Assembly (NCBI GenBank): GCA_015057325.1
Contig: SVEQ01000007.1
Location: 124,001 to 188,000, forward strand
Source: Lachnospiraceae bacterium
Lineage (GTDB): Bacteria > Bacillota > Clostridia > Lachnospirales > Lachnospiraceae
Reading direction: 5' to 3'
Length of the DNA stretch: 64,000 nucleotides
The position numbers and the translations under genes are program-made. The notes beneath the pieces are model-generated. The model saw only the letters and a list, made by a program, of their open reading frames with translations. It ran no database searches and was not told where the DNA came from. Shown here piece by piece: positions 10,022 to 43,393 of this stretch. Positions within the stretch are counted from its first letter, which is position 1. Each line of letters starts with the position of its first letter.

Positions 10022-11698
10022 TTATTTTGCTGAACCGTCAAGTTCTTTGTTAACTGCAGATAATAATGCACATACAGATGCATCAATAATATCGTTTTTG
10101 ATACCGCAGCCCCATACGGTCTTGCTGTCAGATGTTTCGATTCCCACGTAAGCACAAGCCTGCGAATTAGAACCCTGCTGTAATGCATGCTCCTCATAAG
10201 AAACAAGCTTGAAGTCAATCTCAAAGTGCTTCTTGACTGCGTTAGATACGGCATCAAGACGTCCGTTACCGTTACCGTGATACTCTTTTAATACGTTGTC
10301 TCTCTTGATTGTAAGAGCAGTCGTGATTGTGCCGTCCTTTTCCTGTACGAAATGGCATTCCTCAAGCTTGATAACAGTCTTGATATTAACATAATTGTTG
10401 TTGAATATTCCAAGTATTTCTTCAGGCGTGAGCTCTTTATGGAGATGATCTGAAACACTCTTAACCGCATAGCCCAAATCTTCGCGCATTTTTGCAGGAA
10501 GATTGAAGCCATAGCTCTGCTCCAATATGTATCCGATTCCACCCTTACCTGACTGAGAGTTGATACGAATAACATCTCCTTCGTACTCTCTTCCTACATC
10601 ATGTGGATCAAGTGGAAGATAAGGAACTGTCCAGTCGGTAAGATTCTTATCCTCACGCCACTTCATACCTTTGGCGATAGCATCCTGATGTGAACCCGAA
10701 AATGCTGCAAATACGAGTTTGCCTGTATATGGTGAACGGTCATATATTCTCATTCCCGTTACGCGCTCGTATAATTCTGAAATCTTAGGAAGATTAGAGA
10801 AATCAAGCTTTGGATCAACACCGTGTGTGTACATATTCATTGCAAGTGTAATAATATCAACGTTTCCTGTTCGCTCACCGTTTCCAAAAAGTGTACCCTC
10901 AATTCTGTCAGCGCCTGCAAGAACACCAAGCTCTGCATCAGCAACACCACAACCTCTATCGTTGTGTGGGTGAAGTGAAAGGATAACATTGTCTCTCATT
11001 ATAAGATTCTTACTCATGTACTCAATCTGGCTTGCATAAACGTGTGGCATTGACATTTCCACTGTTGCCGGAAGGTTGATAATAACCTTGTTATCCGGAG
11101 TTGGTTTCCATACATCTATTACAGCGTTACAAACCTCTAATGCATAGTCAATCTCTGTACCTGTAAATGATTCCGGTGAATACTCAAACTGGTAATTGCC
11201 ACCGTCTTTTTTTGTTAAGTCAAGAAGCATTTGAGCACCGTCTGTTGCAATTTTCTTAATCTCTTCTTTTGACTTTTTAAATACTTGCTCTCTCTGTGCA
11301 AGAGAAGTAGAGTTATATACATGTACGATTGCGTGCTTGCATCCTCTTACTGCCTCGAAGGTCTTCTCGATAATGTGAGGTCTTGCCTGAGTAAGAACCT
11401 GAATTGTAACATCATCAGGGATAAGATCCTGCTCAATAAGTGCACGTAAAAAGTCATATTCCGTTTCGGAAGCGGCAGGGAAACCCACCTCTATTTCCTT
11501 AAATCCAACAGCGACGAGCATCTTGAAAAACTCGATTTTCTCTTCAAGGCTCATTGGTACTATAAGTGCCTGGTTACCGTCTCTAAGGTCAACCGAGCAC
11601 CATGCCGGAGCCTTGTCTATATATTCTTTTTTTGTCCAATCAAGAGCCTGCTCCGGTGGCATAAAATAGTTGCGCTTATACTTGCTTGCGTTCATCAT
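10022..11698 (-). CDS. leuA: 2-isopropylmalate synthase
   Basis: 558-residue enzyme condensing 2-oxoisovalerate with acetyl-CoA, the committed step of leucine synthesis; cytosolic. Seen: catalytic TIM barrel with SVDLRDGNQAL near residue 35 (metal and substrate site), SLHPHNDRG near residue 240 and GNGERTGN, followed by a C-terminal LeuA allosteric domain (about residues 430-550). The length fits the longer LeuA type. AGGAGG lies nine bases before ATG. Upstream on the same strand is a T-box leader whose specifier reads CUC (Leu). The rest of the leucine pathway is not in the window, so leuA appears to stand alone. Confidence 0.95.
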   Translation of the reverse strand: MMNASKYKRNYFMPPEQALDWTKKEYIDKAPAWCSVDLRDGNQALIVPMSLEEKIEFFKMLVAVGFKEIEVGFPAASETEYDFLRALIEQDLIPDDVTIQVLTQARPHIIEKTFEAVRGCKHAIVHVYNSTSLAQREQVFKKSKEEIKKIATDGAQMLLDLTKKDGGNYQFEYSPESFTGTEIDYALEVCNAVIDVWKPTPDNKVIINLPATVEMSMPHVYASQIEYMSKNLIMRDNVILSLHPHNDRGCGVADAELGVLAGADRIEGTLFGNGERTGNVDIITLAMNMYTHGVDPKLDFSNLPKISELYERVTGMRIYDRSPYTGKLVFAAFSGSHQDAIAKGMKWREDKNLTDWTVPYLPLDPHDVGREYEGDVIRINSQSGKGGIGYILEQSYGFNLPAKMREDLGYAVKSVSDHLHKELTPEEILGIFNNNYVNIKTVIKLEECHFVQEKDGTITTALTIKRDNVLKEYHGNGNGRLDAVSNAVKKHFEIDFKLVSYEEHALQQGSNSQACAYVGIETSDSKTVWGCGIKNDIIDASVCALLSAVNKELDGSAK

Positions 11699-11759: not shown

Positions 11760-12035
11760 AATAAAAAAATCCCACGTCTCTTTGTTAAGAGACGTAAGAT
11801 GTTATCTTACGCGGTACCACTCTTATTCATACAAAATGTATGCACTCATTGCGAATACGAAACAGATTATTATCTGAATGATATTCTCCCTTCTGTAACG
11901 GTTGGGCTCCGTCCACACCTACTGTTATTAAATAACGTGTTCAGTGGGCTGCTCAAAGGCGAGTTCAGATTCTTTCCGTTGTCATCTCACACCAACCGAT
12001 GACTCTCTGAAAACTTTCAAAATCTTACTAGTCCT
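11760..12035 (-). promoter_or_regulatory. T-box riboswitch, leucine-type (leuA leader)
   Basis: On the minus strand the leader carries an AGAGAG AG-bulge, a specifier region GAACTCGCC (CUC at 11961-11963, a leucine codon), the T-box GTGGTACCGCG (complement of 11810-11820), and a terminator stem (11774-11782 with 11787-11795) followed by seven U. Uncharged tRNA-Leu should stabilise the antiterminator and turn leuA on. The specifier choice is inferred from its position and fits the gene. Confidence 0.92.
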
Positions 12036-12077
12036 TATCATTGCATTTGTAAATATAAGTTATATATTTATAGAAAG

Positions 12078-12204: not shown

Positions 12205-13173
12205 ATGTATCTTGTATTTGACGTGGGGGGAACATTTATCAAATACGCACTAATGGATGGCGATGGCGAAATTGTTGAAAAGAACAAGGTTAAAACGCCG
12301 CCAAACAAGCCCGGAACCAACTCCGGTGATTTTGTAGAGACGCTTGGTCGGATATTTGATGAATGTGTTAAGAAAGAAAAACTTGATGGAATTGCCATAG
12401 CACTTCCGGGTCAGATTGATGTGGATAACGGTATTGTGTATGGCGGAGGTGCACTCCCTTATCTTCACGAGGCAAGGCTTCAGGAACTTCTTGAAAAGAG
12501 GTGTGATGGCACACCTGTTGCACTGCAAAATGATGCCAAGGCGGCTGCGCTTGCGGAGGTTTGGAAGGGTAATGCCAGTGATGTTGATGACGCGTGCATA
12601 ATGATATTTGGAACGGGAATTGGCGGTGCGATTATCAAGGATAGAAAGGTACACATTGGTAAGCATTTACTTGCGGGAGAGTTGTCATTTGCAATAATGG
12701 GACTTGGCTTTGAAGATGTTGATAAGATAAGACCGGTAGAGGGCCTTGGAGTTTTGGAATCGTACGATAAGGTTCCGTATATCAGCTCAGCTCACGGCTC
12801 AACAGCAATGCTTTGCCATAAGTATGCTGTAAGGAAGGGCCTTTTGGATGACGATGTGACGGGCGAGCTCATTTATAAAAATGCTTCAGAGGGCGATGAG
12901 GTAGCCCAAGGCGTTCTTAATGAAATGTATTTTGCAATTGCAAAGCAGTGTCTTAACTTATACGTAATATATGACCCTGAGGTTATACTTATCGGTGGTG
13001 GAATCAGCGCAGAGCCTAAGTTTATTGAGGGAATACGTGAGTACGTGGACAAGATTAAGAAGATTTCGCGTGTTTATGAATCGATTAAACTTGATGTGTG
13101 CAAGTTCCGCAATGATTCCAATCTGCTTGGAGCGCTGTATAACTTCAAACAAAAATATGAAATTGCTGTTTAG
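12205..13173 (+). CDS. ROK-family sugar kinase (glucokinase-like)
   Basis: 322-residue ROK protein without a DNA-binding N-terminus, so a kinase rather than a repressor. Seen: ATP-binding VFDVGGTFIKYAL at the N-terminus, the sugar site region LQNDAKAAALAE near residue 110, and the phosphate-binding IFGTGIGGAII near residue 137. The usual ROK zinc motif CxCGxxGC is absent, as in a subset of the family. The next gene is a GH1 6-phospho-glycosidase, so a role in beta-glucoside or glucose use is likely. The last codons and stop (13161-13173) coincide with the end of repeat element E1a. The ribosome site (GGGTGGTGA) is weak. Confidence 0.87.
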   Translation: MYLVFDVGGTFIKYALMDGDGEIVEKNKVKTPPNKPGTNSGDFVETLGRIFDECVKKEKLDGIAIALPGQIDVDNGIVYGGGALPYLHEARLQELLEKRCDGTPVALQNDAKAAALAEVWKGNASDVDDACIMIFGTGIGGAIIKDRKVHIGKHLLAGELSFAIMGLGFEDVDKIRPVEGLGVLESYDKVPYISSAHGSTAMLCHKYAVRKGLLDDDVTGELIYKNASEGDEVAQGVLNEMYFAIAKQCLNLYVIYDPEVILIGGGISAEPKFIEGIREYVDKIKKISRVYESIKLDVCKFRNDSNLLGALYNFKQKYEIAV

Positions 13174-13953
13174 TTACATTTTAAAATGAAACTTTATGTG
13201 TCTTTAATGCGTCTCATATGATTGCAGTTCCAACGCAGGCACGCAGCACAAGGCATGCCCTGTCTCTAAGCTCATGCTTTGCATTCGCTAAGAGAGAGGG
13301 GATTCCGCCCGTTTTGAGCGCAACGGTACTAAGTTCACACGTTGTGTTCACTAAGTACCGGCGGTCAAAAAGGACCTGCTTATGGATACTGCAACATAAT
13401 TCGACGCATGATATACGCTATGAAGTTTCGCAATAAAATGTCCCTAAACGGACGCCAGACGCGACTCGCCGCAAGCGGCTCGCATCAACGCGCACGGTAC
13501 GTGTTGGCTGGTTTGATGCACTTTCCTACATCATGGAACAGCGTAAGATTATCTGCGTGTGCAATATCCTGTGTCGTAAAGATTGTTATATACATTACTA
13601 AACAAACGGCAGCATAAAGAATTGTTGTGTATTACATTCTGGGTGACATTCAGGAGGATATTAGAGTTTCTTGGTATATCGATGAGTAGACAGCGGCTGC
13701 CGAACATGGATGTTCGGCATGTTCCATTGAGACAGGATGTCGAATTGGAACAGTGCCGCGTACAATATCATAATGTCACCGAGATACCTAGAAACTCTTA
13801 TGTCCGTATGTCTCGTCACGCAGAATGTAATATATCGACAATTTGTTATGCGTCCGTTTTGAAAATGTATATAACAGTTCATTGGACACAGGATATGCAT
13901 ACATCTGATAATCTGTACGCGTCCGTCATATATAAAAGTGCATTAAACAGCAA
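13161..13953 (+). repeat. E1 element copy A, inverted-repeat intergenic element with a nested E2
   Basis: About 790 bp without a credible gene. The first 24 bases overlap the ROK stop and match the end of copy B at 36852-36876. The last 69 bases (13885-13953) match 36489-36557 at 67 of 69 positions on the opposite strand. The two ends carry inverted copies of TTGCTGTTTA. A subterminal inverted repeat brackets the interior (about 13511-13575 with 13885-13946). An inner 19-base stem pairs 13663-13681 with 13780-13798 (17 of 19), and inside it is a nine-base hairpin at 13699-13718. Copy A is longer than copy B because E2a (13189-13429) and roughly 85 bases at about 13575-13660 are inserted. No transposase is present. 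It looks like a MITE or a large structured RNA; which one is open. Confidence 0.8.
13189..13429 (+). repeat. E2 element copy A, nested in E1a
   Basis: A 241 bp near-palindromic element. The outer arms begin GAAACTT and end AAGTTTC and stay imperfectly complementary for about 45 bases. The core at 13324-13382 contains CGGTACTAAGTTC, AGTACCGGCGGTC and CCTGC and matches E2b at 43272-43330. The stem GCAGG/CCTGC is GCAGA/TCTGC in E2b. The direct repeat TAAAATG occurs on both sides (13182-13188 and 13434-13440), close to but not exactly abutting the arms. Confidence 0.75.
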
Positions 13954-13979: not shown

Positions 13980-15389
13980 ATGAATATAAAGAAGATGAAA
14001 AAGTTGCCTGACGATTTCATGTGGGGGGCATCAACAAGTGCATATCAGGTAGAGGGTGCCAATCTTACACACGGAAAAGGTCCCAGTGTTCAGGATATAA
14101 AGAAGGTACCGGAAGGCACAAGTGAGCTTGATGTGTGTGCGGATTTTTATAACAGATATGCGGAAGACATTGCTCTTATGGCGGAAATGGGCTTTAAGAC
14201 ATTTCGTTTTTCGGTTGCATGGTCAAGAGTAATACCGCAAGGTTCGGGAGCTGTCAATCAGGAAGGAATAGACTTTTACAGCAATGTAATTGATGAATGC
14301 TTGAAGCATAATATAGAACCGCTCGTTACAATGTTTCATTTTGACTTACCGGCAGCGTTGGAGAAAAAAGGCGGTTGGTCAAGAAGAGAAAGTGTTGATG
14401 AGTTTGTTGAGTTTGCAAAACTTCTTTATGAGAATTACGGTGACAGGGTAAAATACTGGCTTACGATTAATGAGCAGAATATGCTAACTCTTGTCGGAGA
14501 CGTTATCGGTACAACGAATACGGAAGGTGTTGCCAATAAGTATAAGAAGCTTTATCAGGAAAACCACCATATGTTACTTGCACAGGCCAAGGCTATGAAG
14601 CTTTGCCATGAAATGTTGCCTAACGCTAAGATTGGTCCTGCACCTAATATTTCTTTGGTATATCCTGCAAGTTGTAAGCCTGAGGATATGCTGGCCGCAC
14701 AGAACTTTAATGCGATAAGAAACTGGTTATATCTTGATATGGCAGTGTTTGGAAGATACAACAATCTTGTGTGGACATACCTTGAAGAAAGAGATGCACT
14801 TCCTGACATCGAGCCGGGTGATATGGATATAATGAAGGCTGCAAAGCCTGACTTTATCGGATTTAATTACTACAATACCGCAACGGTTGAGTGGGCAGAG
14901 GAAGGTGGAGAAGCCAAACTTGGCGATCAGCAGTCGGGTGCAAAAGAACCGGGTGTATATCAAAGTTTTGCAAATCCTAATCTGCTTCGTACGGAGTTTG
15001 GCTGGGAGATTGATCCGATGGGCTTTAGAGCCACTATGAGAGAAATGTATTCAAGGTATCATTTACCGATGATAGTTACTGAAAACGGCCTTGGTGCATA
15101 TGACAAGCTTACGGAAGATGGTAAGATACATGATGATTACCGTATAGAGTATTTAAGAAAGCATATTGAGCAGATTAAACTTGCGGTATCAGAGGGTGTT
15201 GAAATGATGGGATATTGTCCGTGGTCGGCAATTGATCTTGTTTCAACTCATGAGGGTGTTGTTAAGAGATACGGCTTCATATACGTTAACCGCGATGAGT
15301 TCGATTTGAAGGATCTTGCACGCTATAGAAAAGATTCCTTCTATTGGTACAAGAAGGTAATAGAGACTAACGGTGAAGATTTGTCGTAA
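13980..15389 (+). CDS. GH1 6-phospho-beta-glycosidase
   Basis: 469-residue glycoside hydrolase family 1 enzyme that likely cleaves phosphorylated beta-glucosides inside the cell. Seen: FMWGASTSAYQVEG at the N-terminus, acid/base E165 in LTINEQN, nucleophile E368 in IVTENG. Near the C-terminus, STHEGVVKRYG has the Ser, Lys and Tyr spacing (S, +7 K, +9 Y) that binds the 6-phosphate in this family, which favours a phospho-substrate over free cellobiose. No signal peptide. GAGGAGG lies eight bases before ATG. No PTS genes are adjacent. Glucosidase versus galactosidase cannot be settled here. A hairpin terminator follows. Confidence 0.9.
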   Translation: MNIKKMKKLPDDFMWGASTSAYQVEGANLTHGKGPSVQDIKKVPEGTSELDVCADFYNRYAEDIALMAEMGFKTFRFSVAWSRVIPQGSGAVNQEGIDFYSNVIDECLKHNIEPLVTMFHFDLPAALEKKGGWSRRESVDEFVEFAKLLYENYGDRVKYWLTINEQNMLTLVGDVIGTTNTEGVANKYKKLYQENHHMLLAQAKAMKLCHEMLPNAKIGPAPNISLVYPASCKPEDMLAAQNFNAIRNWLYLDMAVFGRYNNLVWTYLEERDALPDIEPGDMDIMKAAKPDFIGFNYYNTATVEWAEEGGEAKLGDQQSGAKEPGVYQSFANPNLLRTEFGWEIDPMGFRATMREMYSRYHLPMIVTENGLGAYDKLTEDGKIHDDYRIEYLRKHIEQIKLAVSEGVEMMGYCPWSAIDLVSTHEGVVKRYGFIYVNRDEFDLKDLARYRKDSFYWYKKVIETNGEDLS

Positions 15390-28036: not shown

Positions 28037-28245
28037 ACCAACAAGATAAGATAATATTGTAGAACTTCTGAGGTGTTCGACAACTCTTGCTATTTTGAAC
28101 CTACATTTATTTTTATGGGATTTCGATATTTATATGTGGATGTCATGCCTGCATCGACTGGACGGCAGAAGTGTATATGTGATTACCCACCTAGCTTGGG
28201 CTAGGACTCAAAATGCGGGAACCGGCACACTCGGATGTTCTACTT
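28037..28245 (+). ncRNA. ssrS: 6S RNA
   Basis: About 190-200 nt with the 6S shape. A long terminal stem pairs GTAGAAC (28059 on) with GTTCTAC (ending 28243) and continues TTCTGAGGTGT with ACACTCGGA. An asymmetric central bubble includes TTGCTATTTTGAACCTAC, and a distal arm contains CCTAGCTTGGGCTAGG. Its own strong promoter and the absence of an ORF agree. 6S RNA binds the housekeeping RNA polymerase holoenzyme and lowers promoter use in slow growth. The family call rests on my recall of the Firmicutes consensus, not on a model search. Confidence 0.77.
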
Positions 28246-36488: not shown

Positions 36489-36876
36489 TTGATGTTTAAT
36501 GCACTTTTATATATGACGGACGCGTATAGATTATCAGATGTATGCATATCCTGTGTCAGAATGTCCGGTGCTAAGAGGTTGTAGGTATGCCGACAACACT
36601 TTCTTATAATACGCGACCGGCTATCAATTCGCCATCGTGGCTCAATGATGCCTTGCTCGCCATCCATGGCTCGCATCGCTATGTTAATCACGGCATACCA
36701 ACAACCTCTAAACACCTACCATATTCCACAGGATATTGCACACACAGATAATCTCACGCTGTTTCGTTATATAAGAAAGTGCATCAAATCAGCCAACACG
36801 TAACGTTCGCGATGATGCGAGCCGTTCACGGCGAGTCGCGTGCGTCCGTTCTTAAAATGTAACTAAACAGCAAATT
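36489..36876 (-). repeat. E1 element copy B, intergenic inverted-repeat element
   Basis: 388 bp filling the space between queA and aroA exactly, with no credible gene. Ends carry related inverted termini: on the minus strand it starts with TTGCTGTTTAG and its far end is the complement of TTGATGTTTA. Matches E1a in both flanks (69 bases at one end, 67 identical). The inner stem pairs 36574-36592 with 36691-36709 at 18 of 19 positions. The outer arms pair about 36492-36557 with 36726-36788. Orientation follows aroA, as E1a follows the ROK gene. Confidence 0.82.
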
Positions 36877-43216: not shown

Positions 43217-43354
43217 CTGTGAATAATACACAGGTTCAACGCAGACACGCTCTCGCTCGATTATTCACGTAGCGGTACTAAGTTCGCACTAAATGCTCAC
43301 TAAGTACCGGCGGTCATAAACGGTCTGCTTTTGAAACCTGTATATTATTCGCAG
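43217..43354 (+). repeat. E2 element copy B, inside the glycan operon
   Basis: 138 bp inverted-repeat element. Outer arms pair 43217-43237 with 43333-43354 (CTGTGAATAATA with TATTATTCGCAG). The conserved core (43272-43330) matches E2a: CGGTACTAAGTTC, AGTACCGGCGGTC, and GCAGAC pairing with GTCTGC. No ORF. It lies between an ABC permease gene and its ATPase gene, where it could adjust their transcription or translation ratio. Confidence 0.75.
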
Positions 43355-43393
43355 AGGAAGTGTAATAGATAATAACGAAGGGAATTATATATT

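Follow-up and report, generated by a model that had tools for sequence, protein, structure and literature searches.

A TwoAYGGAY core with a covarying stem at the predicted hairpin tip of a modular, terminal-inverted-repeat-bounded element, probably a BOX-like mobile repeat, in a Lachnospiraceae lineage

Since 2010, TwoAYGGAY (Rfam RF01731) has figured among the probable RNAs whose function is unknown. The original table of that year classes it as probably an RNA and probably not a cis-regulatory one (PMC2864571). In the accessible parts of later papers, CsrA binding has been proposed for it from motif matching (PMC4333381), and the Rfam 15 paper places RF01731 among the families improved with R-scape and reports covarying pairs (PMC11701678). 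The RNA family itself and its covarying pairs are already known, and we do not present them as new. Among bacterial repeats, the BOX elements of Streptococcus pneumoniae are described, in the available text, as modular non-coding repeats of 67-637 bp with terminal inverted repeats (TIRs), 36 copies of which contribute the stop codon that terminates a gene (PMC3049150). The ERIC/RU-1 and Correia/NEMIS elements are MITE-like repeats whose transcripts form stem-loops, and effects on mRNA via RNase E (ERIC) or RNase III (NEMIS) have been reported for them in the part of the review available (PMC2229807).

Here we analyze two related loci, E1a and E1b, that lie in one window, a stretch of 64,000 nucleotides from a Lachnospiraceae bacterium. 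The best explanation of the comparisons reported below is that both are copies of one MITE-like repeat, modular and non-coding, that belongs to a Lachnospiraceae lineage.

The covarying stem and its RNA family

An earlier note on this DNA, made from the sequence alone, had stated that two stretches of E1a pair with each other and that the equivalent arms of E1b keep the pairing through double changes, and had suggested that the fold is under selection. Read directly in the sequence, the 5′ arm of E1a (13663-13681, plus strand, AGAGTTTCTTGGTATATCG) does pair with the 3′ arm at 13780-13798 (plus strand). The matching arms of E1b are 36691-36709 (5′ arm) and 36574-36592 (3′ arm), on the minus strand when the locus is oriented like E1a. 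All three double changes from E1a to E1b are present, at stem positions 5 (T-A to G-C), 8 (C-G to G-C) and 17 (T-A to C-G), and so is the fourth position said to become paired in E1b, stem position 16, which is an A.G mismatch in E1a and G-C in E1b. The nested hairpin described inside E1a was likewise found, at about 13699-13718.

Analysis with cmscan showed that both stems match RF01731 over its full length (model 1-168). The core of E1a occupies 13649-13812 on the plus strand and scores 93.7 bits, and the core of E1b occupies 36560-36723 on the minus strand and scores 104.8 bits; because the gathering score is 43, chance is excluded for both stems. The 19-pair stem of the earlier note is the outer stem of the model, whose two terminal hairpins correspond to the nested hairpins and are present in both cores. 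In E1a the first of these (13698-13719, plus strand) has the loop ATGGAT, an instance of the AYGGAY motif, and the second (13720-13752, plus strand) has the loop AGGAT. The E1b counterpart of the second hairpin has the loop ACGAT, without GGA, so that GGA is found in both loops of E1a and in loop 1 only of E1b. We conclude that the paired stem is the core of TwoAYGGAY, a known but unexplained bacterial RNA family.

A search of 60 genomes with RF01731, the genome of the window included, returned 137 cores in 13 genomes. The distribution is patchy and mostly multi-copy, with 1 to 25 matches per carrier; the genome of the window (G000) has 25 cores over the gathering score in 3.05 Mb. From the 137 cores 52 were extracted, of which 44 were distinct and 40, from 13 genomes, were aligned. 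Across these 40 distinct cores the 19-pair stem was paired in 87.8% of 746 cells, compared to 70.3 ± 0.8% in shuffles. Double changes were seen in 15 of the 19 stem pairs, 115 cells being changed on both sides, and the covariation score of the stem was 0.444, compared to 0.144 when shuffled and at most 0.108 when the stem was slid. None of 500 shuffles reached any of the five measures taken. RNAalifold predicted 32 pairs from the same alignment, 28 of them with double changes.

Since counts of cells ignore descent, a tree was built from the non-stem columns, and the branches carrying a change on both sides that kept pairing were counted; the expectation was obtained by re-dealing the 3′ columns among the 18 pairs. 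With all 40 rows, 27 compensatory branch events were observed versus 2.2 ± 2.0 expected, and with 33 rows, 29 events versus 2.5 ± 2.1; in neither case were any of 2000 re-dealings as high. The seven rows left out of the smaller tree (L030, L032, L041, L043, L044, L047 and L052) have stems that looked out of register in the alignment. The selection on folding that the earlier note had proposed is thus supported by the test it had itself suggested, the addition of more copies. We conclude that the fold of the hairpin tip is under selection.

Double changes of this kind could also, as the earlier note allowed, be a by-product of a palindrome, if the two DNA arms corrected each other by template switching and the fold itself was not selected. 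The elements in which the cores lie are long imperfect palindromes, and in such palindromes arm correction by template switching is known to happen. Moreover, with all 40 rows G-U cells are little commoner than A-C cells, 35 to 22 when 26 pairs are counted or 37 to 22 when 27 pairs are. Such correction should, however, have erased a mismatch that lies within the stem, at a pair that none of the 40 rows forms (the bases are T.T in 38 rows, C.A in L030 and C.T in L043), and we disfavor conversion for this reason. It also sits poorly with the retention of GGA in loop 1 of 38 of the 40 rows and in loop 2 of 35 (in both loops of 35), and with a G-U to A-C ratio of 25 to 5 once the seven misaligned rows, together with pair 7-186, are removed from the count. 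We regard arm-to-arm conversion as very unlikely. A G-U excess would be in line with a stem that acts as RNA transcribed from the AYGGAY strand; this is favored but not proven, because the excess is large only after the seven rows are dropped.

Extent, copies and placement of the element

Around the selected stem lies a far longer element, whose ends can be defined and which the earlier note had missed. When copies were compared by eye, sharp ends emerged in inverted orientation, each reading TTGCTGTTTA followed by AATGCAC (A end) or by a GTTACA-like sequence (G end). With ends placed from other copies, E1a extends from 13163 to 13953 (791 bp), with a G-type end on the left and an A-type end on the right, and E1b from 36489 to 36873 (385 bp), with an A-type end on the left and a G-type end on the right. 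The TIRs of E1a are at 13163-13182 (plus strand, TTGCTGTTTAGTTACATTTT) and 13934-13953 (minus strand, TTGCTGTTTAATGCACTTTT); those of E1b are at 36489-36508 (plus strand, TTGATGTTTAATGCACTTTT) and 36854-36873 (minus strand, TTGCTGTTTAGTTACATTTT).

Whole-element folding was carried out for E1a and E1b. E1a is predicted to fold as two giant hairpins with a short linker between them (-347.8 kcal/mol, z -24, none of 20 shuffles as low), and both of its strands fold well (-347.8 and -325.5). E1b is predicted to fold as one giant hairpin (-158.2, z -8.8, 0 of 100 shuffles). The TwoAYGGAY core would form the tip of the right hairpin of E1a (13507-13951, plus strand) and of the E1b hairpin (36490-36795, minus strand), and in the predicted hairpins of both elements the terminal repeat pairs with an internal copy. 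This holds as well for the left hairpin of E1a (13166-13451, plus strand), which has no TwoAYGGAY core and is a different module without an Rfam match: the only family returned for 13163-13500 was mir-276, at 12.7 bits versus 62, which is meaningless. A stand-alone relative of this module lies at 43222-43357, with an ABC-2 membrane gene on one side and a gene for an ABC ATPase on the other; over 73 nt it shares 78% identity with 13319-13391. The genome-wide search for ends found no TTGCTGTTTA end there.

The pattern TTGCTGTTTARTKMMMTTTT, allowing up to two mismatches, gave 67 end matches in the genome of the window, of which 62 have no more than a single mismatch; the reversed pattern used as a control gave 1. 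The genome holds about 30 elements, with 57-62 ends. Seventeen elements have both ends on one contig and measure 385-829 bp; ten of these contain one core, five contain two divergent cores and two contain none, and the AYGGAY strand of all 20 of their cores reads outward to the nearer end. Both ends carried TTGCTGTTTA in 15 of 15 complete elements examined, a one-base variant being present at 4 of the 30 ends. Facing ends with at most one mismatch pair only at distances of 385-829 bp, and one end (C2:19920) has no partner; an autonomous partner with matching ends could have been lost in assembly gaps. By hand count, 28 of the 48 contig ends of this genome are no more than 600 nt away from the end of an element, and short-read assembly of this lineage therefore tends to break at these repeats.

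Features by which MITEs are recognized, namely TIRs and a dispersed, multi-copy and patchy distribution, were found. Target-site duplication was not consistent in the 15 complete elements, of which L061 alone has TAAA on both sides, and such duplications could have been lost by rearrangement. In another carrier genome, G024, a 40-bp remnant consisting of little more than two terminal repeats (L167, 1426-1465, on contig C17) is flanked by TATA on both sides. With the same bases on both sides, L167 and L061 are among the few possible target duplications.

Elements of the same design are present in G024, mostly with TTACTG ends, and the ends in G012 read, by eye, about TTAATGTTTA. Cores arranged as divergent pairs were also seen in G003, G007, G012 and G033, and in most of the loci compared in other genomes the self-complementary arms extend beyond the core. 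A wide scan of genomes with the end pattern returned at least 79 loci; outside the isolates RUI386 and RGIG4909 nearly all were single ends in assorted phyla, about the level that we would estimate for chance. The end pattern also occurs at 15 viral-contig loci, 12 of them with a single end and 3 with a second, weaker match (in L263 this match is 485 bp away and inverted); we claim no link to phages.

E1a is neighbored by a ROK-family gene, whose stop codon (13171-13173) falls inside the element, and by a GH1 glycosidase gene (ORF start at 13980). E1b lies between the convergent genes queA and aroA, starting at the base after the queA stop and ending 3 nt before the aroA stop, and thus fills all but 3 nt of the space between the two stops. 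In three relatives, G006, G013 and G015, the queA-aroA place has no element, and 175, 87 and 50 nt separate the stops. Two further structured RNAs were identified in the window, a T-box leader at 11785-12050 (RF00230, 147.9 bits, minus strand), upstream of the ORF at 10022-11698, and a 6S RNA at 28062-28241 (RF00013, 78.5 bits, plus strand).

The longest reading frame within 800 nt of flank was recorded for each element end, locus L071 being left out of the site counts as a duplicate of the window. In G000, 25 of 57 ends have this frame running into the element, and 20 of these 25 frames stop at -4 to +11 nt of the end. The same was found for 18 of 22 inward frames in G004 (48 ends) and for 7 of 11 in G024 (24 ends), as raw counts in all three genomes. 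A stop at +11 is supplied by the element's own TTTAG or TTTAA, as in E1a. In 15 of the 32 outward frames of G000 the first start codon lies 19-31 nt away from the element end, and a weak common TAWA is seen in the flanks just outside the ends. Many ends coincide with a gene boundary; frequent positions are the base that follows a stop codon and a point some 20-30 nt ahead of the next frame.

Start codons at such distances, together with the Rfam type label of RF01731 (Cis-reg), would suit a classical cis-regulatory RNA or riboswitch that precedes specific genes. Yet the four neighbors of E1a and E1b (ROK, GH1, queA and aroA) are unrelated, E1b sits between two stop codons, the type of end changes at shared sites (see below), and the 2010 table speaks against this class; we find a cis-regulatory role of this kind hardly credible.

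Sites shared with a sister species

In the genome of a sister species, G004, queA is 99% identical to the queA of G000. The flanks of element ends were compared between the two species, counting only alignments of at least 150 nt; the comparison covers a single sister genome, which is a metagenome assembly with breaks at these repeats, and ends found by pattern only. For 33 of the 57 G000 ends (27 loci) the flank also leads to an element end in G004. In 19 of these 33 the alignment runs right up to the element in both genomes, the others stopping 1-38 nt short. The type of end agrees in 13 of the 33 shared ends, compared to 16.4 expected by re-dealing, and the first 70 bases inside the element are 67.5% alike at shared sites, compared to 69.9 ± 2.2% for random partners. 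Eight shared ends have flanks that are 97-100% identical; four of these have switched end type, and a fifth has changed module.

Individual sites illustrate these counts. The E1b site reads queA-A...G-aroA in G000 and queA-G...A-aroA in G004, there on two contigs and with another composition, and at L148/L120 the same two flanks have their ends exchanged (flipped) between the species. At these two sites both orientations occur with the same flanks, between species only and with differing content too. The element of L067/L133 is unchanged between the two genomes. In G004 the flanks of L053 and L058 are distributed among different elements, a pattern suggestive of rearrangement breakpoints at elements. 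Because it is local, the end type beside a flank should be fairly secure against misassembly; the joining of far element halves in a metagenome assembly is less safe.

The remaining 24 G000 ends have no partner among the pattern-found ends of G004. The flanks of two of these, L111 and L119, lie in G004 without an element, and the right flank of E1b, also among the 24, does abut an element there. The empty sites at L111 and L119 were examined for the exact target, which was unreadable, the other side being different in G004. Only 3 of the 24 G024 ends compared share their flank with G000, so that site conservation beyond the sister pair is limited. Flank identity between G000 and G004 is very uneven, ranging in alignments of up to 250 nt from 75% to 100%, and this suggests that chromosome segments have been exchanged in a mosaic fashion. 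In this comparison, shared sites hold elements that differ in type and orientation as much as random ones do, even where the flanks are near-identical.

The same differences could arise if the two species had each acquired insertions of an ordinary mobile repeat at the same spots, which it prefers, independently of each other and with no exchange in place. Such insertion would be helped by the weak TAWA outside the ends and by the preference for stop codons, near which ends are common in three genomes, and it would agree with the elements being, by eye, different between genomes and more alike within one. By our own estimate, however, the 33 shared ends in 27 G000 loci demand far more specificity than TAWA offers, and the eight ends with nearly unchanged flanks leave little time for two hits at one spot, although four of them have switched type. 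We therefore think independent insertion doubtful.

The reading that we consider probable is that the element is a BOX-like, non-autonomous mobile repeat with a selected RNA fold, whose contents would be exchanged and whose hairpins, where transcribed, would serve as spacers in mRNAs or form their 3′ ends. A putative enzyme with the terminal repeats as its substrate would insert and exchange the elements, and the route of exchange might be recombination or re-transposition at the TTGCTG ends. Target duplication being inconsistent, we infer mobility from distribution and comparison. If content is truly exchanged at fixed sites, repeats would here evolve in an unusual way, and the exchange would give rise to genome rearrangement and assembly breaks in these bacteria.

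A bolder proposal goes further and takes the some 30 sites, many of them immediately after stop codons, as fixed docking sites, at which cassettes tipped by TwoAYGGAY would be swapped and inverted by site-specific recombination at TTGCTG ends (TTACTG in another species), faster than point mutations accumulate in the flanks, with the fold serving as a substrate for recombination or for an RNA-guided process. We consider this rather improbable. Were it true, recombination between sites would shuffle the chromosome.

Possible roles and comparison with known repeats

Under the BOX-like reading that we prefer, the most likely role of the element is that of a structured mRNA spacer affecting stability or processing, a role proposed by analogy with the BOX, ERIC and Correia repeats as described in the available parts of two reports (PMC3049150, PMC2229807). 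The intergenic hairpins, once transcribed, would act as structured spacers within mRNAs or as their 3′ ends. Their GGA loops may in addition bind a protein such as CsrA.

A stronger version of the latter idea makes TwoAYGGAY a small RNA that sponges CsrA and has been spread by the repeats. In most rows the loops read CANGGANG or CAGGANG, which we take to be close to the CsrA consensus, and a csrA gene is present in the genome of the window; the motif-matching proposal in the literature, cited above, points the same way. The distribution of CsrA does not, as it is found over the cut-off in 9 of 13 carriers of RF01731 and in 33 of 47 non-carriers, showing no association. CsrA is lacking in 4 of 13 carriers, two of them genomes at 90-91% completeness and two at 70-80%, versus 14 of 47 non-carriers. 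Cores of the E1b type also have no GGA in loop 2. Collectively, these data make a CsrA sponge possible but unlikely.

As far as our literature searches show, three things are new: the TIR-bounded hairpin element, its position at stop codons, and the way in which sites shared by the sister species have had their content and orientation scrambled. Searches of the open-licence literature on MITEs, Lachnospiraceae, Butyrivibrio, stop codons and invertons found no link of TwoAYGGAY to a repeat in the titles and abstract openings among the matches listed.

Compared with known systems as the available parts of their descriptions present them, the elements resemble invertons in that DNA between inverted repeats is found in both orientations, but here some 30 dispersed elements share their ends, and the content changes too (PMC11892184). 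REP/BIME sequences, which have RAYT transposases, are likewise extragenic palindromes in alternating orientation; REPs are, however, 20-40 bp long, unlike the 385-829 bp elements described here (PMC2817692, PMC3733652). The likeness to ERIC/RU-1 and Correia/NEMIS lies in their MITE-like form and stem-loop transcripts, but these repeats are smaller (about 107-155 bp), have other TIRs and show target duplications (PMC2229807). BOX shares with the present elements its modular, non-coding design and its TIRs, the comparison being one of architecture. For BOX, target duplications are reported, whereas E1-type elements have none that is consistent, and neither TwoAYGGAY nor a change of type at shared sites appears in the available text of the BOX description (PMC3049150).

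With TwoAYGGAY itself the relation is one of identity, the core being a full-length member of RF01731 by covariance model. Published descriptions of the family, in their available parts, cover the core only, whereas here the core is predicted to cap a long hairpin, within a repeat that is bounded by TIRs and located at gene ends. A place at the tip of such a modular repeat would explain why TwoAYGGAY is multi-copy and patchy and why its neighboring genes are unrelated.
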